From assembly GCF_013350005.1 (NCBI RefSeq), contig NZ_JABVWW010000013.1, forward strand, positions 33,317 through 97,316: a stretch of 64,000 bases of DNA, read 5' to 3'. The notes below the pieces were generated by a model. It was not told the origin of the DNA. It saw only the letters and a program-made list of their open reading frames with translations, and made no database searches. The position numbers and the translations under genes were made by a program. Below are positions 15,844 through 57,860 of this stretch, one piece after another (the first letter of the stretch is position 1; the number at the start of each line of letters is the position of its first letter). The stretch comes from Methylocystis silviterrae (GTDB taxonomy: Bacteria; Pseudomonadota; Alphaproteobacteria; Rhizobiales; Beijerinckiaceae).

Positions 15844-17142
15844 TTACTCCGCCGCTTCGCCCTTCGCGCCGCCGCCGAAGCGGCGCACGATGTAATCGTC
15901 GACGATGCGGGTGAATTCCTCGGCGATGCCCTCGCCCCGCAATGTCATCGCCTTTTTGCCGTCGATGAACACCGGCGCGGCCGGAGTCTCCCCGGTGCCG
16001 GGCAGCGAAATGCCGATGTCGGCGTGTTTCGACTCGCCGGGACCGTTCACGATACAACCCATCACCGCCACATTGAGCGTCTCGACGCCTGGATATTGCG
16101 CGCGCCAGGCCGCCATCCGCTCGCGGATATGCGCCTGGATGTCGCGGGCGAGTTCCTGAAACACGGTCGAAGTGGTGCGCCCGCACCCCGGGCAGGCCGC
16201 AACGAGCGGCACGAAGGTGCGAAAGCCCATGGTCTGCAGAATTTCCTGGGCGACGCGCACTTCGAGCGCGCGGTCGCCGCCAGGTTCGGGCGTCAGCGAC
16301 ACGCGGATCGTATCGCCGATGCCGTCCTGCAGCAGCACGCCCAGCGCGGCCGAGGACGCGACGACGCCCTTCGATCCCATGCCGGCCTCGGTGAGGCCAA
16401 GATGCAGCGCATAGTCGCTGCGCTGCGCGAGCATCCGGTAACAGGCGATGAGATCCTGCACCGCCGAGACCTTCGCCGAAATGACGATGCGGTCCTTCGC
16501 AAGGCCGATCTCCTCGGCGCGCTTCGCCGACATCAGCGCCGAACGGGTCAGCGCCTCGCGCATCACGGCGCGCGCGTCGAGCGGCCTGTCGGAAGCGGCG
16601 TTGACGTCCATCAGATAGGTGAGCAGCTCCTGATCGAGCGAGCCCCAATTGGCGCCGATCCGCACCGCCTTGCCGTGCTTGGCGGCAAGTTCGACGATCG
16701 AGGCGAACTGCTTGTCCTTCTTTTCCTTGAAGCCGACATTGCCCGGATTGATCCGGTATTTGGCGAGCGCCTCGCCGCAGGCGGGATGATCGGCGAGCAG
16801 CTTGTGGCCGATGTAATGGAAATCGCCGACCAGCGGGACGTGGCATCCCTTCTGCGCGAGCTTCTCGAAAATATGCGGCACGGCGGCCGCCGCCTCGTCG
16901 CGATCGACGGTGATGCGCACCAGCTCGGAGCCCTGCTGCGCCAGCGCCAGAACCTGCGTCACGGTCGACTCGACATCCGCCGTGTCGGTGTTGGTCATGG
17001 ACTGGACGACGACGGGCGCGCCGCCGCCGACGATCACCGCCGCGGGGCCCGCGCCAACAGCCACCGCGCACGTGCGGTGGCGGGGCGCCGGTTCGGCGAC
17101 GACCGGGTCGGGCAGACGGGTCTCTGATGCGGCTTCGTTCAT
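15844..17142 (-). CDS. ispG: 4-hydroxy-3-methylbut-2-enyl-diphosphate synthase (flavodoxin)
   Basis: 432 aa. This is the 4Fe-4S enzyme of the penultimate step of the MEP isoprenoid pathway. TIM-barrel part: [14 protein letters not shown] near residue 40, [17 protein letters not shown]. The C-terminal cluster domain has ACPGCGRT plus GCIVNGPGE, supplying the three cysteine ligands and the glutamate. Start ATG 17142 gives MNEAASE...; the frame is open further upstream without homology. Together with dxs at 45.4 kb, two MEP pathway enzymes lie in this window. Confidence 0.96.
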
Positions 17143-17413
17143 GGGGGTCGTTTCGGCGGTCGTTGCGGACGCCGATAGGTCGCCCGTAAGGCGTTCGAGG
17201 TCAAGCGCCCAAAAGCAATAGGGCCATCGCAGCGATGCGGGCGACACGAGCGCTTAATCGAAAGTTCAGCCAAGCATGAACTTCGAGACTTATCTGAGTC
17301 GGTGCAAATCCCAACTTCGAGGAGGCTCTGCCTTTAAAGTGTAGCATCTTCCACAGCTCCGATTCGCCAACGTGGCAAGTCTACGCGAGCGCGCGTCCCC
17401 GGCTTGTGCCGCT
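17143..17413. other. Intergenic region between ispG and the toxin-antitoxin pair
   Basis: About 270 bases upstream of divergent ispG and the DUF1778 gene. I see no gene, RNA or recognisable remnant. It should hold the ispG promoter, which I could not locate with confidence. Confidence 0.4.
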
Positions 17414-17450
17414 TATACTAGGTAATGACATTAGCGTTACACTATGCTAA
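17414..17450 (+). promoter_or_regulatory. Candidate promoter -10 and operator of the toxin-antitoxin operon
   Basis: TATACT (17414-17419) is a good -10 box, though no clear -35 was found. Just downstream are two dyads: GTAATG...CGTTAC (17422-17440, one mismatch) and TTAGC-N10-GCTAA (17431-17450, perfect arms). Ribbon-helix-helix antitoxins of this type repress their own operon from such sites. Assignment is by position and symmetry only. Confidence 0.4.
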
Positions 17451-17473
17451 AGCGAGTGCTGGAGAAAACCGTC

Positions 17474-17755
17474 ATGGCGGCCAACCGGTCTGATGCAAAG
17501 CGTGAGACGCTCAACCTCCGGGTGAAGCCTGAGGACCGCGAACTCATCGCGCGCGCAGCGACGCTTCTCGGCAAGACGCGCACGGATTTTCTGCTCGACG
17601 CCGGCCGCCGCGCCGCCCAGGATGCGTTGCTGGATCGCACGCTGTTCAATGTCAGCTCGGAAGACTATGCGCGCTTCGTCGAACGCCTCGATGCGGCGCC
17701 CGCGCCGAACGAGAAATTGCGGCGCATGATGACGACCAAAGCGCCGTGGGAGTGA
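17474..17755 (+). CDS. DUF1778 family antitoxin (TacA-like)
   Basis: 93 aa. The N-terminus has a ribbon-helix-helix segment (ETLNLRVKPEDRELIARAA, then KTRTDFLLDAGRRAAQ), and the C-terminal part (FNVSSEDYARFVERLD) is the region that clamps the GNAT toxin in TacA-type antitoxins. GGAG at 17461-17464 sits 9 bases before this ATG, which favours it over the upstream ATG at 17444. It should neutralise the toxin encoded next and repress the operon. Confidence 0.85.
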   Translation: MAANRSDAKRETLNLRVKPEDRELIARAATLLGKTRTDFLLDAGRRAAQDALLDRTLFNVSSEDYARFVERLDAAPAPNEKLRRMMTTKAPWE

Positions 17756-18249
17756 AGCCCAGTCCACCCCGCCCGATATCCGACGCCGACGAACTCTCCG
17801 CTTTCGACTGCGGCGTTTCCGCTCTCGACGACTGGCTCAAACGCCGCGCCCGCGTCAATCAGGCGAGCGGCGCGTCCCGAACTTACGTCGTCTGCGAGGG
17901 GTCTCGCGGTGTCGCCTATTACGCGCTCGCCTCCGGAGCGGTCGCAGTTCTCGCGGCGTCGCCAAGGCTTCGGCGCAATATGCCCGATCCTGTTCCGGTG
18001 GCGGTGCTTGGCCGGTTGGCGATCGATCGCGCACGCCAGAACCAGGGTCTTGGTCGCGCGCTCGTCCGCGACGCTGCCCAGCGCGTTATCCACGCCGCCG
18101 AGACGATCGGAATCAGAGGCGTCTTGGTCCACGCCATATCCGCTGAGGCTGCCGCCTTCTATCTGGCGGTGGGCTTCGAGCCTTCGCCGTTCGAACCCTC
18201 AACGCTCATGGCGACGCTTTCTGATCTTTGCGCGGCGAGCATGCCCTAG
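17746..18249 (+). CDS. GNAT acetyltransferase toxin (TacT-like)
   Basis: 167 aa. GNAT fold: the acetyl-CoA loop RQNQGLGRALV, the toxin-family segment FDCGVSALDDWLKRRA near the N-terminus, and the conserved Tyr in AAFYLAVGFEP. TacT-type toxins acetylate the amino group of charged tRNAs and stop translation. It overlaps the antitoxin end: the first GTG is at 17746, and another at 17752 forms a GTGA overlap with the antitoxin stop. All catalytic features look intact, so the toxin is probably functional. Confidence 0.85.
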   Translation: MGVKPSPPRPISDADELSAFDCGVSALDDWLKRRARVNQASGASRTYVVCEGSRGVAYYALASGAVAVLAASPRLRRNMPDPVPVAVLGRLAIDRARQNQGLGRALVRDAAQRVIHAAETIGIRGVLVHAISAEAAAFYLAVGFEPSPFEPSTLMATLSDLCAASMP

Positions 18250-18274
18250 ACGGCGATGAGGTCAGACCTGCCGC

Positions 18275-18685
18275 CTAGGCGCTTGGCGGTTTGGGCGTCA
18301 TCCAGGCGACGAAGGCGCCGCCCGGCTGCTGCAGCACGGCCATGCGGCCGACGCCGGGGATCTCGAAGGCGTCCTTGCAGATCGTGGCGCCGGCGGCCTT
18401 GGCCTTCTCCAGGCGGGCGTCGACGTCATCGACGCCGATATAGGTCAGCCAGTGTTCTGGAACGCTCGCCAGTTCCGGGGCTTTCATCTCGAACATGCCG
18501 CCGACCTGCGCGCCCCGCGAACTGATGATCCAGTATGTGGCGCCGTCCATGGGCATTCCCACGAAGCTCCAGCCAAGAGTTTGGCTGTAAAACTTCTTCG
18601 CCCGCTCGACATCGTGGACATTGAGTTCGTTCCAGCAGACCGCGCCATGTTTTTGCGGCGCGCCACAGTCATTGGCGTTGGACAT
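18275..18685 (-). CDS. VOC (glyoxalase/bleomycin-resistance fold) family protein
   Basis: 136 aa, two beta-alpha-beta-beta-beta modules: VCWNELNVHDVERAKKFY...GWSF in the first, and YIGVDDVDARLEKAKAAGATI with PGVGRMAVLQQPGGAFVAW in the second. Members of this VOC subgroup act on small molecules or are of unknown role; substrate not predictable. AGGAGAG lies 6 bases before the ATG. It is single and unlinked to its neighbours except by strand with the thi operon end. Confidence 0.85.
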   Translation of the reverse strand: MSNANDCGAPQKHGAVCWNELNVHDVERAKKFYSQTLGWSFVGMPMDGATYWIISSRGAQVGGMFEMKAPELASVPEHWLTYIGVDDVDARLEKAKAAGATICKDAFEIPGVGRMAVLQQPGGAFVAWMTPKPPSA

Positions 18686-18748
18686 AGCCTCTCCTTTTCA
18701 GCTCAACATCGTTGCGGACGATCGGAAGGATCGTCCCAGGGCGGTCGC

Positions 18749-19600
18749 CTATTTCGGCAGCAGGCCGAGCCGGCGCGCCGTCAGCCAGTCGACGAGTCGC
18801 GCCGGCAATAGGCTGCGTAGCGTGTAGTCGGTAAAGCGATTCCTTACGACCGGGATCCGGGCGGGCGGGCGCGTGGCCGTCAGCGCCCGCAACACGGCGC
18901 GCGCGACGACCTCGGGACCGGGCGCGCGGCGGCCGGCCTCTACAAGCCACTCCAGCATCCTCCGACCTGGCGCGGCATAGGCCGTGCCCTCGAACATCGC
19001 GAGATCGGTCTCTTCGGCCTTGTCCCAGATCGGCGTCGCGATCATCCCTGGCTCGATCAGGACGACGTCGACGCCATAGACGATCAGCTCGCGCCGCAGC
19101 GCGTCCGACATGCCCTCTAGCCCGAATTTCGAGGCGGCGTAGGCGCCGAGAAACGGCGCGGCGGAGCGACCGGCGACCGAACTCATATTGACGATGCGGC
19201 CGGGCGCGCCGCGTCGCGGCGCCCCAGCGCCGAGCAGGGGCGCGAAGGCTTGGATGATCCGAAGCTGGCCAATCAGATTGATCTCGATCTGGCGGCGAAA
19301 GTCGTCGATCGGCAGATGCAGCAGCGGGCCGGGGACGGCGACGCCGGCATTGTTGACGAGGCCCGCGAGCGTTTCGCCTTCGAGGCGGGCCTCGACGTCG
19401 CGCGCGGCCAAGGCGATCGATTCGGCGTCGGTCACGTCGAAGAACAGCGGAATGACGGACGCGCCGTGTCGAGCCGTGAGCGCGGCGGCGTCGGAGTCCT
19501 TACGGACCGAGGCGAAAACCAGAAACCCGTTCTCAACCAATAAATCGACACAGGCCGCGCCGATCCCGGTCGAGGCGCCGGTCACGACCACGGCCTTCAT
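18749..19600 (-). CDS. SDR family NAD(P)-dependent oxidoreductase
   Basis: 283 aa, classical short-chain dehydrogenase: cofactor motif TGASTGIG at residues 7-14, NNAG, catalytic Ser in NMSSVAG and YAASK. The C-terminal extension is of the type seen in DltE/retinol-dehydrogenase-like members. Its ATG overlaps the stop of the ThiE-amidase gene (ATGA), so it is translated as the last gene of the thiamine operon, though no thiamine role is known for it. Confidence 0.88.
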   Translation of the reverse strand: MKAVVVTGASTGIGAACVDLLVENGFLVFASVRKDSDAAALTARHGASVIPLFFDVTDAESIALAARDVEARLEGETLAGLVNNAGVAVPGPLLHLPIDDFRRQIEINLIGQLRIIQAFAPLLGAGAPRRGAPGRIVNMSSVAGRSAAPFLGAYAASKFGLEGMSDALRRELIVYGVDVVLIEPGMIATPIWDKAEETDLAMFEGTAYAAPGRRMLEWLVEAGRRAPGPEVVARAVLRALTATRPPARIPVVRNRFTDYTLRSLLPARLVDWLTARRLGLLPK

Positions 19601-20967
19601 ACGCGTTCTCCCAATGTCGCGAGGAGACTGGCGAGCGCCACGCGCGTGTCGCCGTCGGCGCGGCCGTCGACCTTCGCGCGGCGGAAGTGGCGCTGAAACG
19701 CCTCCACCGCCTGGACGGTCTGGACGTCATAGACGCCGGTCGGCTCGACGCCATAGCCATAAGCCGCGAGGTCGCGCTGGAGCGAGGCGACCTTGGCGCC
19801 CGCGTCGACAAGCGAGATCGTCGTCGCGCCAGCGCCGAGACTCTCATCGGCGACCCGCCCGACGCCATGGCGGGCGAGCTCCTCCCAGGGAAAGAACTCG
19901 CCGGGGTCCCGCTTGCGCCCAGGCGCGATGTCGGAATGCGCCAGCACGCGCTCGGGCGGTATCGCGTGGCGCCGGCAAATGTCCTTGGCGAGCGCCGCCG
20001 TCGCCTCGATTTGCGCCGCCGGATAGGGTCTCGGGTCGTCGTGGCCCGGATGAACGACTTCGATCCCGATCGAGGCGGAGTTCATGTCGGTTTCGCCGGC
20101 CCAGTAGCTTATCCCGGCATGCCAGGCGCGCCGCGACTCCGGCACGAGCTGCAGCACGCCGCCGTCCTCCTCGACGACATAATGCGCCGAAACCTCCGAG
20201 CGCGGATTGCAAAGCAGGGCGAGAGCCGATTCCGCCGTCGGCATCCCCGTATAGTGAAGCACCAGCGACGAGATGGGGCGCAGCCGCGCGCCATGATTGG
20301 GCGATGGACACACGCGCGCGCCGTCGTAGTCGGGCGCGAAAAAGCCCTCGCGCTCACGCCAGGGTTGCGTCGCGGAGAGCCATTCCCGCGCGCGCGCCTC
20401 TGGTTCGGCGTTGCGCAAAATGTCGGTGACGACGCAGGCGCTGTCGGCGCCCGCGGCAAGCGCGGCGATGGCGCGTTCGGGGGTCAGTCCGCCGATGGCG
20501 ACAAGAGGCGTCTCGCCGATCTGCGCCTTCCAGGCCCCGATCCGGGCGAGGCCCTGCGGCGCAAAAGCCATTTGTTTCAGAAGCGTGGGATAGATCGGCC
20601 CAAGCGCGACATAGTCCGCGCCGAGCGACAGCGCCCGGCCAAGTTCGGCTTCGTCATGCGTCGAAACGCCGATCCTGACCCCGGCGCGGCGCAACGCCGG
20701 GATGTCCGCCGCGTCGAGATCGCCCTGGCCGAGGTGGACGAAGTCGCAGCCTTCCTCCATCGCGAGCCGCCAGTAGTCGTTGACGACGAGCTGCGCGCCA
20801 TGTCGCGCGCACATCTCCCGCGCCGTTGCGATCTGCGCGCGCACGTCAGGCTCGGCGCGATCCTTCACCCGCAGCTGCACGAGCTTAACGCCCTGCGGCA
20901 GCAGGCGGGAAAGCCAGTCGGCGTCGTCGACGATCAGATAGAACGGGTCGAGCCTCAGCGCCGCCAC
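19597..20967 (-). CDS. thiE: Fusion: thiamine-phosphate synthase + AmiD-like N-acetylmuramoyl-L-alanine amidase + peptidoglycan-binding domain
   Basis: 456 aa in one frame. Residues 1 to about 205 are a complete ThiE: LVQLRVKD, VVNDYW, FVHLGQGDLD, GVSTHD, YVALGPIYPT, IGGLTPER. Residues about 220-375 are an Amidase_2 domain with the zinc ligands in LVLHYTGM and VLAHSDIAPGRKRDPG. Residues about 390-450 are a PG_binding_1 domain (VASLQRDLAAYGYG...VQAVEAFQRHF). These are normally separate proteins, one cytoplasmic and one in the envelope, and no signal peptide is present. The link (WREREGFFAPDYD) crosses a run of five A at 20339-20343 (plus strand), where an indel could create the fusion. GTG start, 3 bases after the thiG stop. 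Confidence 0.8.
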   Translation of the reverse strand: MAALRLDPFYLIVDDADWLSRLLPQGVKLVQLRVKDRAEPDVRAQIATAREMCARHGAQLVVNDYWRLAMEEGCDFVHLGQGDLDAADIPALRRAGVRIGVSTHDEAELGRALSLGADYVALGPIYPTLLKQMAFAPQGLARIGAWKAQIGETPLVAIGGLTPERAIAALAAGADSACVVTDILRNAEPEARAREWLSATQPWREREGFFAPDYDGARVCPSPNHGARLRPISSLVLHYTGMPTAESALALLCNPRSEVSAHYVVEEDGGVLQLVPESRRAWHAGISYWAGETDMNSASIGIEVVHPGHDDPRPYPAAQIEATAALAKDICRRHAIPPERVLAHSDIAPGRKRDPGEFFPWEELARHGVGRVADESLGAGATTISLVDAGAKVASLQRDLAAYGYGVEPTGVYDVQTVQAVEAFQRHFRRAKVDGRADGDTRVALASLLATLGERV

Positions 20968-20970
20968 CCG

Positions 20971-21759
20971 TTACGCCAGTCTGTCGAAGGGTCGGCCGAT
21001 GATCGGCGTCGAAGGCTCCGCCATGTCGCGCGGCGTCATCGGCTGCGCGCGAAAGCCCGCTCGGCCGGCTTCGATCGCGAGGGCGAAGGCGCGCGCCATC
21101 AAGACGGGGTCGCCGGCGCGCGAAACGGCGGTGTTGAGCAGCACCGCGTCATAGCCCATCTCCATAACGAGCGCGGCGTGAGACGGCGCGCCAAGCCCCG
21201 CGTCGACAATGAGGGGCGTGTCGGGAAAATGCGCGCGCAGCGCCCGCAAGGCGAAAGCGTTGTTGACCCCGCGCCCGGAGCCGATCGGCGCCGCCCAGGG
21301 CATCAGCACGCGGCAGCCGGCGTCGAGCAGCTTTTCCGCCACCACCAGATCGTCGGTCGTGTAGGGAAAGACCTTGAAGCCGTCATCCGCGAGCGCGCGC
21401 GCCGCCTCGACGAGGCCGAAGACGTCAGGCTGTAGCGTGTCTTCCTCGCCGATAACTTCCAGCTTGATCCAGTCGGTTGCGAAGACTTCCCGCGCCATTT
21501 GCGCGGTCGCGATCGCCTCCTTGGCGGTGCGGCATCCGGCGGTGTTGGGGAGCACGCGCACGCCGACATCGCGGATGAGGCTCCAGAAAGTCTCGCCCGC
21601 GCGCGCCCCGCCGGCCTCGCGCCGGAGCGAGACGGTGACGATCTCGCATCCCGATGCGCGAATGGCCTCGGCGAGGATTGCTGGCGACGAATAGCGCGCG
21701 GTGCCGAGCAGCAGCCGCGAGGCCAGCGCGCGGTCGTAAAGCGTCACCGGGTCATTCAT
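20971..21759 (-). CDS. thiG: Thiazole synthase
   Basis: 262 aa. ThiG forms the thiazole ring from deoxyxylulose 5-phosphate, dehydroglycine and ThiS thiocarboxylate. Signatures: [26 protein letters not shown], the Schiff-base Lys in [11 protein letters not shown], and [12 protein letters not shown]. It lies between thiS and thiE, 13 bases after the thiS stop. DXP for this step would come from Dxs, also encoded in this window. Confidence 0.96.
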
Positions 21760-21772
21760 GCATCAAACTCGC

Positions 21773-21970
21773 TCACCCGCCCTGTCTCGGCGTCACGATC
21801 TCGACGGCGTCGCCTTCGCGAAGCCGCGTCTCGGCGCGGTCCCTGGCGCGCACGAACTCCTGATTCAGAGCGGTGCCGACGGTCTTTTCATCATACCCCA
21901 GTTCGTCCAGCAGCATTTGCAACGTGGTCGCGCTCACATCCTGCGGCCGCCCGTTGATCTGAATCAGCAT
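21773..21970 (-). CDS. thiS: Sulfur carrier protein ThiS
   Basis: 65 aa, ubiquitin-like: MLIQINGRPQDV, TLQMLLDELGY, and VEIVTPRQGG ending in the essential Gly-Gly that is adenylated and thiocarboxylated. Its start lies within the last 80 bases of thiO in another frame, so it is coupled to thiO translation. Confidence 0.95.
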   Translation of the reverse strand: MLIQINGRPQDVSATTLQMLLDELGYDEKTVGTALNQEFVRARDRAETRLREGDAVEIVTPRQGG

Positions 21971-22949
21971 CCATCACCTCTGGGAAATGTCCGTCGTTTA
22001 CAATGACCTCGGCCGCGCGGCGCGCCAGCGCCGGCGCAAGCAGGAATCCGTGGCGGTAGAGCCCATTGATATAGAGAGTGCGACCCCGCTTCAAAAGACG
22101 TGGCAGATTGTCGGCGAAGGCGGGTCGGAGGTCCGAGCCGGTCTCGACAATTTCCGCCTCGGCGAAGGCCGGGTGGACCGCAAAGGCGGAGTTGACGAGT
22201 TCGACGACCGACCGCGCGGTGACCCGCGCGCGCTCCTCATTCTCGATCATCGTCGCGCCGACCATGAACAGTTCCTCGCCGCGCGGCACGACGTAAACCG
22301 GCCGGCGCGGATGCAGCATGCGCACCGGACGCGCCAGGGAAATCTCCTCGCTGCGCAGGATCAGCATTTCGCCCTTCACGCCGCGCAGGCCGGGAAGCGC
22401 GTCGCGCGCCGCGAAGCCGCGGCAGTCGATTATCCAATCCGGGATCGTCTCCAGTCCGGCGGCGTCCTGTTGAACATGCAGCGTCACATTCGGCATTTGC
22501 GCGAGGCGCTCGGTCAGCGCGATGAGCGCCGCGCGGGGATCGAGATGCGCTTCTTGCCGAAAAAACAACGCGGCGTCGAAGCGCCCGGCGAGATCTGGCT
22601 CAAGCGCCGCGATATCCTTTGCGTCCAGCGAGTCGAAATTGCGCGTGCGCCGGGCGAAGTCGGCGAGTTCGGCGCGCTCCCGAGCCGGCGTCACGACAAG
22701 ACTGCCGGCGACCGTCGCGACGCCGAGTTCGCGCGACCAGAAGTCGAGCGCTTCTTCGCCGAGCGTCGCGACCAGGGGTTCGGCGCTTTCCAGTTCGCAC
22801 CAGGGCGCGATCATGCCGCCGGCGAAGCGCGAGCAGCCAAGGCCCGGCGCGGACTCGCGCTCGACGATCTCCACCTCCACGCCCTTCCGCGCGAGCGCAT
22901 AGGCGGCGCAGAGTCCGGCGACGCCGGCGCCAATCACGCGCGCGAGCAT
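21891..22949 (-). CDS. thiO: Glycine oxidase ThiO (FAD-dependent)
   Basis: 352 aa. FAD Rossmann motif VIGAGVAGLCAAYALARKG at the N-terminus, DAO fold throughout, RPVYVVPRGEELFMVGAT, and GLYRHGFLLAPALARR near the C-terminus. It oxidises glycine to the dehydroglycine needed by ThiG in organisms lacking ThiH. First gene behind the TPP riboswitch; its end runs 80 bases into thiS. Confidence 0.92.
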   Translation of the reverse strand: MLARVIGAGVAGLCAAYALARKGVEVEIVERESAPGLGCSRFAGGMIAPWCELESAEPLVATLGEEALDFWSRELGVATVAGSLVVTPARERAELADFARRTRNFDSLDAKDIAALEPDLAGRFDAALFFRQEAHLDPRAALIALTERLAQMPNVTLHVQQDAAGLETIPDWIIDCRGFAARDALPGLRGVKGEMLILRSEEISLARPVRMLHPRRPVYVVPRGEELFMVGATMIENEERARVTARSVVELVNSAFAVHPAFAEAEIVETGSDLRPAFADNLPRLLKRGRTLYINGLYRHGFLLAPALARRAAEVIVNDGHFPEVMDADSDQRAAAGCERDHVANAAGRTGV

Positions 22950-22980
22950 GAGCGCCGCCTTTCGGGAAATTTCGCTGACA

Positions 22981-23110
22981 CCATCCCTCCGCCAGTCTCA
23001 ACTGGATCAGGTTCGAAGGGTCGCCGCCCCCCGCGTTTTCGCGCGTCTTGCGGCCTCTCAGCCCCGTGGCGGCGTCGTTGGCGCGCCGCCGGGCGGGCTC
23101 CCCCGGCGGA
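22981..23110 (-). ncRNA. TPP riboswitch (THI element)
   Basis: On the minus strand the conserved blocks appear in order: GGGGGAGCCCG, GGGGCTGAGAGG, GACCCTTCGAACCTGATC, CAGTTGAGACTGGCGGAGGGATGG. These match the thi-box core (CUGAGA and ACCUGAUC with the closing GGGAUGG). It ends about 31 bases before the thiO start, a spacing that suits control by hiding the ribosome site. It should switch off thiO-thiS-thiG-thiE and the coupled SDR when TPP is plentiful. Confidence 0.95.
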
Positions 23111-23262
23111 CGTAGGCTGGCGCGAAGCACCGGGGCAGTCAAGCGCTGCGCTCGACTCCTTTAGGTCGCCGCGCCGCGCCGGGGCTTGCCAGACGTCATA
23201 TGATGGCTCAGTTTGCGCAAAGAAAAGCGCGCGAAAAAAGCGCAGCATACCGGGAGAAAATC

Positions 23263-23859
23263 ATGAGCTTCATCAGCAAAATGGCTAGCGTCCGCAGGAC
23301 GTTGGCCGGCGCCGTTCTCTGTGGCCTGCTCGCCTGCGCGATTTCTGCGGGGCCGGCTGGCGCCGCGCAGCTCGGCGAATATTTTCCCATTCCGAATTCG
23401 CTGAGCCTCAGCGGGGTTCCGCGCGACTCGCTCCTGAAGATCCAGTCGAAATGGCTGCAGAACGGCCTCGACAAACTCAAGAAGGCGCGCGCTGAAGCCG
23501 AAGCGGCGCTCGAAAAGGCCAAGTCCGGCGCTTCGGACCAGGTCGCGGCGGCGGAGGAGAAGGTCAAGAAGCTCGATGCGATGATCGCTGAAACTCAGGA
23601 AGAACTCGCGCTGTCGGAGAACAGTGATTCGTCGCATGAGATTCAACAAGCGCGCAAACGCAACTTGCTGCTCGCTCTCAACCAGTGGATCAATGAGCTC
23701 AATCGCCTCGCCACAGAGCAGATGAAGATCGCGATCCTCAAGGACGGCGCCGAGGCCATGGCGGCGCAAAACCGGAATTATCAATTGTCGGAACAGGCGG
23801 ACAATCTCGAAAAAGCCAAGCGCGACCCGAGTTTCGAAGATTGGGGCGTGACGAAGTAA
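23263..23859 (+). CDS. Secreted coiled-coil protein of unknown function
   Basis: 198 aa. N-terminal signal peptide (basic start, hydrophobic core LAGAVLCGLLACAISAG, cleavage near PAGAA). Residues about 60-115 are Ala/Glu/Lys heptad sequence (KLKKARAEAEAALEKAKSG) predicted to form a coiled coil. The rest is helical and hydrophilic, ending in FEDWGVTK. No family recognised. GGGAG at 23252-23256 supports the ATG at 23263. It lies divergent from the TPP riboswitch promoter. Confidence 0.7.
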   Translation: MSFISKMASVRRTLAGAVLCGLLACAISAGPAGAAQLGEYFPIPNSLSLSGVPRDSLLKIQSKWLQNGLDKLKKARAEAEAALEKAKSGASDQVAAAEEKVKKLDAMIAETQEELALSENSDSSHEIQQARKRNLLLALNQWINELNRLATEQMKIAILKDGAEAMAAQNRNYQLSEQADNLEKAKRDPSFEDWGVTK

Positions 23860-30323: not shown

Positions 30324-31709
30324 ATGACGAGCAAGATATGGGGCGGACGCTTCAAAAGCGCAACCGACGCGGTTCTGGAGGCGATCAACGTCTCGATCGA
30401 CTTCGACAAGCGCCTCGGCCTGCAGGACGTCCGCGGCTCGCTCGCCCATGTCGCCATGCTCGGCGAAACGGGGATCGTGTCGCGCGACGACGCGGCGAAG
30501 ATCGCCGATGGATTAGAGCGAGTCAAAGCGGAAATCGAAAACGAGCGCTTCCATTTTTCGCGCGCGCTCGAAGACATTCACATGAACGTCGAGTCGCGCC
30601 TTGCCGAGCTGATCGGGCCGACGGCGGGGCGCCTGCACACGGCGCGCTCGCGCAACGACCAGGTGGCGACCGATTTCCGACTCTACATTCGCGACCAGAT
30701 CGACGGCCTGGATGCCGAACTCGCCGATCTGCAGCTGGCGCTGGCGACCCGCGCGCGGGAAGAGGCGGCAAGCGTCATGCCCGGCTTCACGCATCTGCAA
30801 TCGGCGCAGCCGGTGACGCTCGGCCATCATCTGCTCGCCTATGTCGAAATGATCGCGCGCGACCGCGGACGTCTTCGCGACGCGCGCGCGCGCCTGAACG
30901 AATGTCCGCTCGGCGCAGCGGCGCTGGCCGGGACGAGCTTTCCGATCGACCGCGCGATGACAGCGGGCGCGCTCGGCTTCGATCGGCCGACGGCGAATTC
31001 GCTCGACAGCGTCTCAGATCGCGACTTCGTTCTGGAGACGCTGAGCGCGGCGGCGATCTGCGCCACGCATCTGTCGCGCTTCGCCGAAGAGATCGTGCTG
31101 TGGACGACGCCACAATTCGGCTTCATCGCGCTGTCCGATAAATTCACCACCGGCTCGTCGATCATGCCGCAGAAGCGCAATCCCGACGCCGCCGAACTCG
31201 CGCGCGGCAAATCGGGCCGCGTCATCGGCGCGCTTGTCGCGCTGCTCGTCGTCATGAAGGGCCTGCCGCTCGCCTATTCGAAGGACATGCAGGAGGATAA
31301 GGAAGGCGCCTTCGACGCGCTCGACACCTTATCGCTCTGCATCGCCGCCATCGCCGGCATGGTCCGCGACATGCGCGTCGACCGCGCGCGGATGAAGGCG
31401 GCGGCCGGCGCGGGCTATGCGACCGCGACCGACCTTGCCGACTGGCTGGTGCGGGCGCTGTCGTTGCCGTTTCGCGAAGCGCACCACGTCACCGGCCGCA
31501 TCGTCGCGCTCGCTGAAGCGCGCGGGGTTGGTCTTGAGGATTTGACGCTCGAGGAGATGCGGAGCGTCGAACCGCGCATCAACGCCGATGTTTGCGACGT
31601 GCTCGGCGTCGAGAAGTCGGTGCAAAGCCGCAGGAGCTTCGGAGGCACGGCGCCCGACAATGTGCGCGCCGCCGCGCAAGTCTGGCTCGACAGATTGAAG
31701 GACAAATGA
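30324..31709 (+). CDS. argH: Argininosuccinate lyase
   Basis: 461 aa. It cleaves argininosuccinate to arginine and fumarate. Fumarase-superfamily signature [16 protein letters not shown], plus [27 protein letters not shown] and [18 protein letters not shown]. Its stop overlaps the next gene (ATGA). Confidence 0.97.
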
Positions 31710-32317
31710 ACGACATTTCGCCGCGACTCTATCTCGCGACCCCGCCGCTTGCCGACGCGGCGGCATTTGCGCCTGCGCTCAACGAGGCGCTCGCGGCGGG
31801 CGACGTCGCGAGCCTGCTCATTCGTTTCGCCGATGCCGACGAGCGCGGTCAGGAAGCGATCGTGCGCGCTCTGGCGCCCGCCGCGCAGGATAAGGGCGTA
31901 GCGGTCCTTGTCGCGGCGGCGCCCAATGTCGCGCTGCGCGCCGGCGCCGATGGCGTCCATGTCGCCGGCAGCGGCGAAGCGCTTGTCGAGGCCATCAAGA
32001 AACTCTCGCCCCGCTACATCGTCGGCGCCGGAGATATCGAGACGCGCGACGACGCCATGCGCGCGGGCGAGTTAAGCGCCGACTATGTGATGTTTTCGGA
32101 TCTTGACCGTGAAGCGCTCATCGAGCGCGTCGCCTGGTGGGCGGAGCTTTTCAACACGCCCTGCGTCGCTCGCGCGGAATCGCTCGACGATGTCGCCTCG
32201 CTCGTTCAGGCGGGCGCCGACTTCGTGCGGCTCGACGACGCGGTCTGGAGCGACGCGCGCGGTCCGGCGGCGGCGGTGGCGGAGGCGCAGGCGAGGCTTA
32301 AGGGAGAGCAGCAGTGA
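31706..32317 (+). CDS. ThiE-like TIM-barrel protein (thiamine phosphate synthase paralogue)
   Basis: 203 aa. It shows the ThiE barrel pattern [55 protein letters not shown]. The segments that bind pyrophosphate and pyrimidine in true ThiE (QxRxK, NDYW, STHD) are changed, so it is unlikely to be the main thiamine enzyme, especially as a canonical ThiE is encoded at 20 kb. Coupled to argH by ATGA and to the Sel1 gene region; role unknown. Confidence 0.7.
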
Positions 32318-54323: not shown

Positions 54324-54770
54324 TTAGGCGCGGCGAAGACGCACCACGACATCTACGCGTGCGACGCGCAAACCGTCGGGCGGCTGGGGAAGATCGGAGA
54401 CCGAGACATTCGCGCCGGCGATGTCGTAAAGCTCTCCGTCGTCTTCGAGAAGAAAATGATGGTGGTCGGCGGTATTGGTGTCGAAATACACCCGGGCGCC
54501 GTCGACGGCGATCTCCCGCAGCAAGCCTGCCTGGGTGAACTGGTGGAGCGCGTTGTACACGGTCGCGAGGGATACGGAGAGATTGGCGGCGAGCGCCTCT
54601 TCATAGAGCCGCTCCGCCGTCACATGACGATCGCCGCTCTGTCCAAACAGCAACTCGCCGAGGGATAGCCGCTGACGGGTCGGCCGCAGCCCGGCGTTGG
54701 CCAGCAACTCTGCGACGCGCTTGCGCGGCGCACAGTCTGGCGGAACGGTCGAATTCGGCTCGGCGTCCAT
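54324..54770 (-). CDS. irr: Fur-family transcriptional regulator Irr
   Basis: 148 aa. Fur winged helix (LRPTRQRLSLGELLF, VSLATVYNALHQFTQAGLLREI), and the Irr hallmark of three consecutive His in TADHHHFLLEDDGELYDI. Irr represses or activates genes under iron limitation and is controlled by heme. Its position divergent from fabA is the standard Rhizobiales arrangement. Confidence 0.9.
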   Translation of the reverse strand: MDAEPNSTVPPDCAPRKRVAELLANAGLRPTRQRLSLGELLFGQSGDRHVTAERLYEEALAANLSVSLATVYNALHQFTQAGLLREIAVDGARVYFDTNTADHHHFLLEDDGELYDIAGANVSVSDLPQPPDGLRVARVDVVVRLRRA

Positions 54771-55031
54771 TGCAGCGGCTCGCGGTTTTCCACTCTCGCG
54801 GTTTTCTACATGGCATCATAGGGGGAATGGCGGGAAATTCAACGCCGCCCGGCTGTTGCGACCCCGCTTGCGACGGCGCTTCCGGCCCGGGCGAGGCTAT
54901 GTTACGGATCGCTTCGCCCAAAAGCGGATAAGAGCGGCGCCGCCGCCGGCGCCAAAAAGATAAGGGCGCGCCCTTTGGGCGCTTGGGGAAGAATGGGCCT
55001 TCAAAGGCTCCAACGCGAGGAACAAAGCACG

Positions 55032-55556
55032 ATGGGCGAAAGGCGCTCCTCATTCGGCTACGAGGATTTACTGGCATGCGGCGAGGAAAAGCTGTTCGGC
55101 CCGGGCAATGCCCAGCTGCCGCTGCCGCCGATGCTGATGTTCGACCGGATCACCGAGATCTTCGAAGACGGCGGCGAGCACGGCAAAGGCTACATGCGCG
55201 CCGAACTCGACATTAAACCGAGTCTTTGGTTCTTCGACTGCCATTTCAAGGGCAATCCCGTGATGCCGGGCTGCCTTGGCCTCGACGCTCTATGGCAGAT
55301 GGTCGGCTTCTATCTCGCCTGGCTCGACAATCCGGGACGCGGCATGGCGCTGGGCGTCGGCGAGGTGAAATTCAGCGGGCAAGTTCGCCCGACCGTCAAA
55401 AAGGTGACCTACGGCATCGACTTTAAGCGCGTCTTCAAGGGCAAGCTTGTGCTCGGCATCGCCGACGGCTGGGTCGCGGCGGACGGAGAGCGCATCTATG
55501 AGGCGAAGGATTTGAAGGTTGGGCTCGCCAAGGCCGAGGCGCCGGCCGCCGCCTGA
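55032..55556 (+). CDS. fabA: 3-hydroxydecanoyl-ACP dehydratase/isomerase
   Basis: 174 aa. Catalytic His in [14 protein letters not shown] and the Asp in LGLDALWQM. It makes the cis-3-decenoyl precursor of unsaturated fatty acids. ATG 55032 preceded by GAGG; the frame extends back to an unconserved ATG at 54975. A 14-bp palindrome AAGGGCGCGCCCTT lies at 54962-54975. Confidence 0.96.
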
Positions 55557-55601
55557 AGCCCACACAAAGGCGCGGGAAAGCGCCGCCAAGGAGTTGGACC
55601 A

Positions 55602-56825
55602 ATGAGACGAGTCGTCGTCACCGGCATGGGGATTGTGTCGTCGATCGGCAACACCACCCAGGAAGTGATCGCTTCGCTGCGCGAGGCGAAGTCTGGCATC
55701 GCCCGCGCCGAGAAATACGCCGAACTCGGCTTCCGTTCGCAGGTGTACGGAATGCCGTCGCTCGACCCCTCGACGCTCGTCGACCGCCGCGCCATGCGCT
55801 TCCATGCGACAGGCACGGCGTGGAACCACGTCGCCATGGATCAGGCGATCGCCGACGCCGGCCTGACCGAAGCGGAAATCTCCAACGCGCGCACCGGAAT
55901 CATCATGGGGTCCGGCGGCCCCTCGACCCACACGCTTGTCGAATCCGCCGACATCACCCGCACCAAGGGACCCAAGCGCGTCGGTCCCTTCGCCGTGCCC
56001 AAATGCATGTCTTCGACCGCCTCGGCGACGCTTGCGGTCTGGTTCAAGATCAAGGGCGTCAACTATTCGATCTCGTCGGCCTGCGCCACGTCCAATCACT
56101 GCATCGGCAACGCCTACGAACTGATTCAGTATGGCAAGCAGGACATGATGTTCGCGGGCGGTTGCGAGGAGCTGGAGTGGGAGCTGTCGGTTCTCTTCGA
56201 CGCCATGGGCGCCATGTCCTCCTCCTATAATGATCGGCCGGCGACGGCCTCGCGCGCCTATGACAAGAATCGCGACGGTTTCGTCATCGCCGGCGGCGCC
56301 GGCGTGCTGGTGCTCGAAGAATTCGAACACGCCAAGGCGCGCGGCGCGAAGATCTACGCCGAAGTCGCCGGCTATGGGGCGACCTCCGACGGCCATGACA
56401 TGGTGGCGCCCTCGGGCGAGGGCGCGGTGCGCTGCATGCAGCAGGCGCTCGCGACGGTGAAGTGCCCGATCGACTACATCAACCCCCACGCCACGGCGAC
56501 CCCGGTCGGCGACGCCAAGGAAATCGAGGCGCTGCGCGAAGTGTTCGGCGTCGGCGACAAATGCCCGCCGATCGCCGCGACCAAATCCCTGACCGGCCAT
56601 TCGCTCGGCGCGACGGGCGTGCAGGAGGCGATCTATTCCTTGTTGATGATGCAGAACGGCTTCATCTGCGAAAGCGCCAATATCGAAGAACTCGATCCGG
56701 ATTTCGCCGACATGCCCATCATGCGGGCGCGCCGCGACAATGTGAAGCTTGGCGCGGTGCTGTCCAACTCATTCGGCTTCGGCGGCACCAATGCGACATT
56801 GGTGTTCAAGCATCCAGACGCCTGA
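55602..56825 (+). CDS. fabB: Beta-ketoacyl-ACP synthase I
   Basis: 407 aa. Catalytic triad: Cys in [16 protein letters not shown], His in [12 protein letters not shown] and His in [12 protein letters not shown]. It elongates unsaturated acyl-ACPs from FabA. 45 bases after fabA; AAGGAG precedes the ATG. Confidence 0.96.
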
Positions 56826-56843
56826 CGCCGATCCCTCGCGATA

Positions 56844-56876
56844 CGTCATGGCCGGGCTTGTCCCGGCCATGGACGT
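56844..56876. repeat. Half-size copy of the GTCATGGCCGGGCTTGTC palindrome
   Basis: ATGGCCGGG-CTTGT-CCCGGCCAT (56848-56870) with flanking CGTC/GACG. Same family as 15733-15827, but only one hairpin. It follows the fabB stop by about 20 bases and could separate fabA-fabB from fabI. Confidence 0.65.
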
Positions 56877-57050
56877 CGAGACATCCAGCCGGCGTTTAGG
56901 AGGCGATTCTTCCAGTTGCGAACGACGCCCGCGGCGCTCGTGAACAGAAGTATCGCCGATACGGCCCACAGCGTCGTTGTTCTTTGCTGTCTGCGTCTCC
57001 ATAGGGCTTAGGCCCAAACTTTCGATCTCTCCTACGACGACAATCGCCAT

Positions 57051-57860
57051 ATGACAGTTTCAACCGGTCTCCTGCAGGGTAAGCGCGGCCTCATCATGGG
57101 CGTCGCCAATGATCATTCCATCGCCTATGGCATCGCGCGCGTTCTTGCGCGCCATGGCGCGACGCTCGCATTCACCTATCAGGGCGAGGCGCTCGGCAAG
57201 CGCGTCAAGCCGCTCGCGCAGGAGCTCGGGTCGAACCTTGTGCTGCCGTGCGACGCCGAGGATATTTCGACGGTGGATCAGGTGTTCGCGCGTCTCGAAC
57301 AGGACTGGGGCGATATGGATTTTCTCGTCCACTCCATCGCCTATTCCGACAAGAGCGAATTGAAGGGACTCTACGCCGACACAAGCCGAGAGAATTTCAT
57401 TCGCACGCTTGTCATTTCCTGTTTTTCCTTCACCGAAGCCGCGCGCCGCGCCGCCAGGCTGATGAAGAACGGCGGATCGCTGCTGACGGTCAGCTTCGGC
57501 GGCGGCACGCATGTCATGCCGAATTACAACGTCATGGGCGTCGCGAAGGCGGCGCTCGATTCATCGGTGCGCTATCTTGCCGCCGATTTCGGCGATCGCG
57601 GCATTCGCGTCAATGCGCTGTCGCCCGGCCCAGTGCGCACCATGGCGGGCGCCGGCATCACGGGCGCGCGGGCGATGGGCGCGTTTCAAAAAAAGCATTG
57701 TCCATTGCGTCGGATGATCACGCTTGATGAAATTGGCGGCTCGGCGCTCTATCTGCTGTCGGAGCTTTCGGGCGGCGTTACGGGCGAAGTTCATCTTGTC
57801 GACGCCGGCTACAACATCATGTTGCAGCCACGTCCCGAGGATCTCAACGGCGAGGAGTAA
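57051..57860 (+). CDS. fabI: Enoyl-ACP reductase (NADH)
   Basis: 269 aa SDR of the FabI type: LIMGVANDHSIAYGIARVLA, SIAYSDKSELKG, and the active-site Tyr-x6-Lys in YNVMGVAKAALD. It completes the fatty acid elongation cycle. Separate promoter likely, 225 bases after fabB. Confidence 0.96.
   Translation: MTVSTGLLQGKRGLIMGVANDHSIAYGIARVLARHGATLAFTYQGEALGKRVKPLAQELGSNLVLPCDAEDISTVDQVFARLEQDWGDMDFLVHSIAYSDKSELKGLYADTSRENFIRTLVISCFSFTEAARRAARLMKNGGSLLTVSFGGGTHVMPNYNVMGVAKAALDSSVRYLAADFGDRGIRVNALSPGPVRTMAGAGITGARAMGAFQKKHCPLRRMITLDEIGGSALYLLSELSGGVTGEVHLVDAGYNIMLQPRPEDLNGEE

Follow-up and report, generated by a model that had tools for sequence, protein, structure and literature searches.

The stretch of DNA analysed here (64,000 nucleotides from Methylocystis silviterrae, hereafter the window) contains one open reading frame in which a thiamine phosphate synthase, ThiE, runs on into a peptidoglycan amidase. 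Gene fusions are commonly taken as a sign that two functions belong together. The questions raised by this locus are whether the two genes are truly joined, or were brought together by a sequencing error, and what a genuine join would mean for vitamin B1 synthesis and cell-wall recycling.

The original prediction, that a single 456-codon frame carries complete ThiE, Amidase_2 and PG_binding_1 domains, was borne out. The frame is open throughout, and the Pfam matches all lie well above their cut-offs: TMP-TENI (PF02581, residues 15-183) at 161 bits against 27, Amidase_2 at 137.6 bits against 26, and PG_binding_1, which follows Amidase_2, at 52.1 bits against 23. The AlphaFold model of the fusion has a mean pLDDT of 87.5 and a pTM of 0.79, and Foldseek searches with this model returned matches to AmiD, AmpDh2 and ThiE structures. 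Coordinates of the fusion, its parts and its neighbours are given in Table 1.

Table 1. Features of the thiE::amidase region, in window coordinates
Feature	Positions	Strand	Remarks
ispG (GcpE)	15844..17247	(-)	beyond the SDR gene in the window
SDR oxidoreductase	18749..19600	(-)	4-nt overlap with the end of the fusion gene
thiE::amidase fusion gene	19597..20967	(-)	GTG start, 456 aa, TGA stop; open frame
PG_binding_1 domain, residues 390-445	19633..19800	(-)	Pfam
Amidase_2 domain, residues 230-357	19897..20280	(-)	Pfam; zinc ligands H238/H344/D354
Linker, residues 204-216	20320..20358	(-)	unfused relatives have the stop codon of thiE and the start codon of the amidase here
ThiE part, residues 1-200	20368..20967	(-)	Pfam and NF000734 matches; R33, K35, N63, D64, D75 and K131 present
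thiG	20971..21759	(-)	ends 3 nt ahead of the fusion start codon
Likely thiS	21773..21970	(-)	65 aa, Gly-Gly end; named by position and ending
thiO (glycine oxidase-like)	21891..22949	(-)	TIGR02352 229.8 bits, below the cut-off of 250.8
TPP riboswitch match	22966..23114	(-)	just upstream of thiO

The ThiE part scored 319.7 bits against the NCBIfam equivalog model NF000734 (cut-off 252) and 151.8 bits against TIGR00693 (cut-off 145.1). Its active-site residues, located by alignment with 1G4T/2TPS and presumably those that bind diphosphate and Mg, are well conserved: R33, K35, N63, D64 and K131 are identical in all 30 aligned fused copies, and D75 in 29 (Glu in one). In fold and active-site residues the ThiE part therefore resembles ThiE of B. 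subtilis (2TPS; NF000734), from which it differs in running on into the amidase without a stop, and on these grounds it likely makes thiamine phosphate. ThiD-ThiE fusions exist, and in yeast Thi6 (3NL2, a sequence match) the ThiE domain is likewise half of a double enzyme. The partner of ThiE in those proteins is another thiamine enzyme, whereas the partner in the Methylocystis fusion belongs to cell-wall recycling. The window encodes a second TMP-TENI protein of 201 aa at 31706-32308 (+), adjoining a gene at 30324-31709 that we take to be argH-like. By eye, the N-D and P-T..K motifs that mark a working ThiE are missing from this second protein, and it scored 142 bits against PRK06512, a model named thiamine phosphate synthase, below the cut-off of 218. 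Because those motifs are missing, the fusion is likely the sole working ThiE of the genome, which also encodes ThiC.

In the amidase part, H238, H344 and D354, which by comparison with AmpD/AmiD we take to be zinc ligands, are all present, as had been predicted; together with E303 and K352, presumably catalytic, they are identical in 30 of 30 aligned fused copies. The best matches of this part, by sequence and by structure, are AmpDh2 (4BJ4) and AmiD (3D2Y). In E. coli, AmiD is a lipoprotein of the outer membrane, and both AmiD and AmpDh2 act outside the cytoplasm. The fusion differs from these closest matches, since it has no signal peptide, of the AmiD lipoprotein kind or otherwise, and its N-terminus is ThiE; the absence of a signal peptide had also been predicted. 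The model for E. coli-type AmpD, NF008758, matched residues 258-367 with 110 bits, below its cut-off of 143.

The original prediction also held that the two enzymes act in different compartments, and this did not stand. No hydrophobic N-terminal segment was found ahead of the amidase domain in any of 73 unfused relatives (the highest 12-residue mean was 1.54, compared with 2.475 for the one signal-peptide control, taken from the window). Moreover, the same pair of domains is described as cytoplasmic in two other bacteria. According to the accessible text of PMC13046382, Caulobacter crescentus AmiR has an Amidase_2 and a PG-binding domain, cuts muropeptides but not sacculi, and is assigned to the cytoplasm; that of PMC9238390 gives the name AmpD to Agrobacterium tumefaciens Atu2113, a protein with both of these kinds of domain, which is cytoplasmic in the authors' model. 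Caulobacter AmpD is likewise described in the accessible text of PMC11980594. Separate compartments are rejected on the evidence of the N-termini of the unfused amidases together with these homologues, as far as the papers could be consulted, and both halves are most likely cytoplasmic, so that the fusion would be a cytoplasmic double enzyme. AmpD/AmiR-type is a better label than "AmiD-type"; the AmiD label of Atu2113 is called a misannotation in the accessible part of PMC9238390. We link the fused amidase to AmiR and Atu2113 by its two domains, by the lack of a signal peptide and through relatives at the level of the order; Rhizobium-type relatives match at 52-57%. In the text available, AmiR and Atu2113 are described with the domain pair and the cytoplasmic recycling role that we propose for the fused amidase, but without a ThiE part, whereas in the fusion a complete ThiE precedes the amidase.

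By this likeness, the amidase part likely recycles muropeptides; proteins resembling NagZ (GH3) and AnmK are also encoded in the window's own genome. That genome has just one other Amidase_2 protein (G000:C33:304822-305379; loci L002 and L003). It has about 203 aa, is 37% identical to the fused amidase and, judged by length and by reading, is without a PG-binding part; short matches similar to it occur in many genomes of the genus. With a second Amidase_2 protein and a second TMP-TENI protein in the genome, neither function necessarily depends on the fusion.

Relatives were searched for fused or separate genes, as the original prediction had proposed. The fused frame was observed in 31 of 37 Methylocystis genomes, the window's own included, at 63-100% identity. 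Separate thiE and amidase genes were found in four (G006, G024, G033 and G034), a broken join in one (G016), and no good match to either part in one (G028, which is 90% complete and 7% contaminated, in about 490 contigs). For 30 of the 31 fused genomes the DNA itself was read, and in every one of these both parts share a frame; the remaining genome, G007, was counted as fused by its match-table row. For G008 and G009, one TGA was listed within the match, yet the DNA reading still gave both domains in one open frame. A scan of 84,980 species kept 79 loci (from the best 80 of 349 relatives), comprising 15 fused loci (L033-L047), the record of the broken copy of G016 (L048) and 63 single-part matches (L049-L111); since the fused loci overlap with the 37 genomes, they are not an independent count. 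In a sample of 149 genomes of the family, the fusion was present in five of six same-genus genomes, and among the matches listed for the 143 genomes of other genera, one of which had no match at all, none covers both parts unless a stop is read through. At the protein level, all three Pfam domains were found in 101 of the 120 clusters listed (of 5247 found) and ThiE with Amidase_2 in 3 more of these. Among the three-domain clusters listed, every name that gives an organism gives Methylocystis. The cluster names listed from NCBI give just "thiamine phosphate synthase", and some of those from JGI just the amidase; annotators should be warned that such one-sided names hide the other half of the fusion.

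Comparison with unfused relatives located the join. Unfused ThiE proteins in this group end in ATAEWRR, ATADRRG, ATALLR (each followed directly by the stop) and similar sequences, and unfused amidases begin with MSFDADYKPARVVASPNHGER in G024, MSFVPDYKSARVVPSPNHGER in G033 and MTFLPDYPLARVVPSANHGER in G034, that of G006 having a GTG start. Fused copies read AT.PWR at the join (PCR in place of PWR in one), then a short linker, a similar F..D...A stretch and SPNHG, which is replaced by SLNHG in two copies. The linker of the fused copies thus lies between the places where ThiE ends and the amidase begins in unfused relatives, and both the stop codon of thiE and the start codon of the amidase have been lost. 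The linker of the window copy is 3 residues shorter than that of a second fused group. The G016 copy has 37 bases missing at the linker (span 1331 compared with 1368), which leaves ThiE and amidase in different frames. This deletion is seen at about position 4600 of L120 and also in L048, and G016 is a metagenome bin that falls within the fused clade. The frame break may be a real split or an assembly error; if it is real, coupling of the two enzymes is dispensable there.

The original prediction had raised the suspicion that two truly separate genes were joined by a one-base sequencing or assembly error in a T run. Such a run is indeed present at the join of the window copy (T5 on the minus strand, within GGC TTT TTC; plus strand 20339-20343), and the broken join of G016 might be read as favouring the same idea. 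However, the fused frame recurs in 31 of the 37 genomes of the genus, isolates and metagenome bins among them, and among 16 close copies the run is TTT TTC in 5, while 11 have TTC TTC or TTC TTT, an interrupted run with the frame intact. Two of the 5 TTT TTC copies have GGT ahead, which makes six T, and they are still in frame. Also, the start and stop codons of unfused relatives are both missing at the join, and the three domains recur together in most of the protein clusters listed. The further proposal, that one extra T would give the amidase a GTG start, calls for a correction: no indel is required to read this GTG, in ARVCPSP, in frame with the amidase, and just 4 of 30 fused copies have a GTG there. 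We consider that an error in the T run has a vanishingly small chance of being the explanation, and a one-base indel as the cause of the join is ruled out by the relatives that combine a fused frame with an interrupted run. A join common to most genomes examined is a real gene fusion.

A real fusion in DNA might still be just apparent at the protein level, if one mRNA frame gave rise to two proteins because the amidase was released at the linker, either by translation from an internal start or by proteolysis. The in-frame GTG ahead of CPSP in the window copy could serve in this way, as could the GTG next to the catalytic His in many fused copies, and the amidase of G016 could be obtained solely from an internal start. 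But we found no conserved internal start at the join of the fused copies: no ATG is conserved there, the CPSP GTG is rare as stated, and the commoner GTG falls inside the first amidase strand. On the side of such a release, dN is higher in the linker than in both enzyme domains in 11 of 11 pairs, though the linker comprises just 16 codons. For ThiE and amidase themselves, dN was 0.014-0.079 and dS 0.20-0.67 (in 11 pairs out of the 29 that can be formed with the window's copy), values that indicate purifying selection on both parts. On balance, we regard the release of a separate amidase as rather improbable. About equally improbable, in our estimation, is a functional link in which contact between the domains would let amidase output or the muropeptide level influence the synthesis of thiamine, or the other way round. 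Retention of the fusion through divergence to 63% identity, with both active sites intact, is what such a link would lead one to expect, but gene adjacency is sufficient to explain the join, and we know of no metabolite shared by thiamine synthesis and the amidase. In addition, G016 may have lost the coupling and unfused sister genomes do without it, which argues against channelling or cross-talk being essential. We think it highly probable, and this estimate covers the explanation as a whole, that the fusion is a genuine gene encoding one likely cytoplasmic protein, in which ThiE is joined to a predicted wall-recycling amidase of the AmpD/AmiR type. In such a protein, the ThiE part would make thiamine phosphate and the amidase part, in the cytoplasm, would remove the stem peptides from muropeptides that have been imported; the two domains would work side by side without channelling, and the tie between them would be shared expression, falling when TPP is plentiful.

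With regard to origin, independent fusions were left open by the single-gene trees, as neither the ThiE-alone nor the amidase-alone tree recovered a single fused clade (2 changes each). They were rejected on the combined tree of thiG, thiE, amidase and SDR with five Methylosinus-like genomes (43 rows, 12 of them unfused; the broken G016 was included, G007 was not), in which the 31 rows with the joined layout form one clade with support of 100/97; outside this clade lie the unfused same-genus genomes and the five Methylosinus-like genomes, among which we counted G162, whose placement is unsure. The fused clade had support of 93/79 with just thiG and thiE, 99/98 with just amidase and SDR, and 92/85 in an earlier combined tree without the Methylosinus-like genomes. 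In G024, in G033 and in 4 of the 5 Methylosinus-like genomes, the gene after the unfused amidase is a close relative of the window's SDR gene, and ispG lies beyond the SDR gene also in the unfused loci L116 and L140. This arrangement makes it likely that the amidase-SDR(-ispG) block was resident and that the thi operon arrived later. This reading draws on part of the unfused genomes, since the amidase-SDR pair was not seen in G006, G034 or G162, and in L114 other genes, with no ispG, stand beside the pair. On this view, the thi operon would have become placed 5' of the amidase-SDR locus already there, and the two genes would have fused once the stop codon of thiE and the start codon of the amidase were lost.

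We also considered a simple inversion between thiE/fabA and the amidase. In G024 and G033, a MoeA-like gene precedes the amidase and a FabA-like gene follows thiE (MoeA of L114 and FabA of L115 were profile-tested), and in the window's genome fabA is about 34 kb from thiE. The inversion was not upheld, because moeA of that genome is on another contig and the placement of fabA differs elsewhere: it was not seen after thiE in G006 or in L144, the sole Methylosinus-like locus listed. In the window, a Fur-family gene adjoins fabA and two further fab-like genes (54324-57860); these are the fab genes that the thi operon directly precedes in the unfused G024 and G033.

The genes thiO, likely thiS, thiG, thiE::amidase and SDR form a row on one strand, behind a match to the TPP riboswitch (RF00059). 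The match is full length, scores 48.3 bits (E 3e-07), short of the Rfam gathering score of 54.3, and contains both CUGAGA and CUGAUC. Of the 7 fused loci examined, 5 have a TPP match upstream of thiO, with scores between 37.3 and 52.3 bits, none of which reaches the gathering score; in the other two, L037 and L044, the stretch ahead of thiO falls outside the locus. Both unfused loci given have one, at 53.5 and 60.8 bits, the latter (L117) passing the gathering score. Within 17400-23400, a weak test found no minus-strand sigma-70-like promoter, and another, also weak, found four terminator-like sites compared with 4.2 expected by chance; the minus strand carries two of the four, one of which falls within thiO. 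L037 (1818-3001) and L044 (1811-3001) carry about 1.2 kb of other DNA between thiG and thiE::amidase; in L037 this DNA presumably holds an oxygenase-like frame, and in L044, on the opposite strand, one that resembles a phage tail sheath gene. Between ispG and the glyoxalase/SDR genes of the window lies a small gene pair (17444-18249, (+)), which we take to be a DUF1778 antitoxin and a GNAT toxin.

Given an operon with a TPP-riboswitch match, the amidase, and with it wall recycling, would be under the operon's predicted vitamin B1 sensor. We can offer only tentatively, as an unlikely extension, the idea that Methylocystis ties wall recycling to its vitamin B1 status, with the riboswitch setting, by way of the ThiE fusion, the dose of the cell's AmiR-type amidase and the fused enzyme also coordinating both pathways at the protein level.

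Our literature searches, in a scope that ended short of the supplementary tables of PMC4921024, found no published ThiE-amidase fusion. That paper compiles thiamine gene fusions, and the word "amidase" is absent from its main text as accessible to us; the fusion may yet be listed in its supplementary tables. The same searches found no published link between thiamine and peptidoglycan recycling. The fusion is a new, genus-level union of two known enzymes, fusions of ThiE with other thiamine enzymes being already known. It joins B1 synthesis to peptidoglycan recycling and has been kept across most of the genus, and its parts, its unfused neighbours and the likely route of its origin are all visible. 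It thus provides a clean case in which to ask whether a long-kept fusion reflects a functional link or a lucky join held by shared expression. Should the amidase indeed be controlled by the riboswitch, these methanotrophs would adjust their recycling of muropeptides in response to thiamine.
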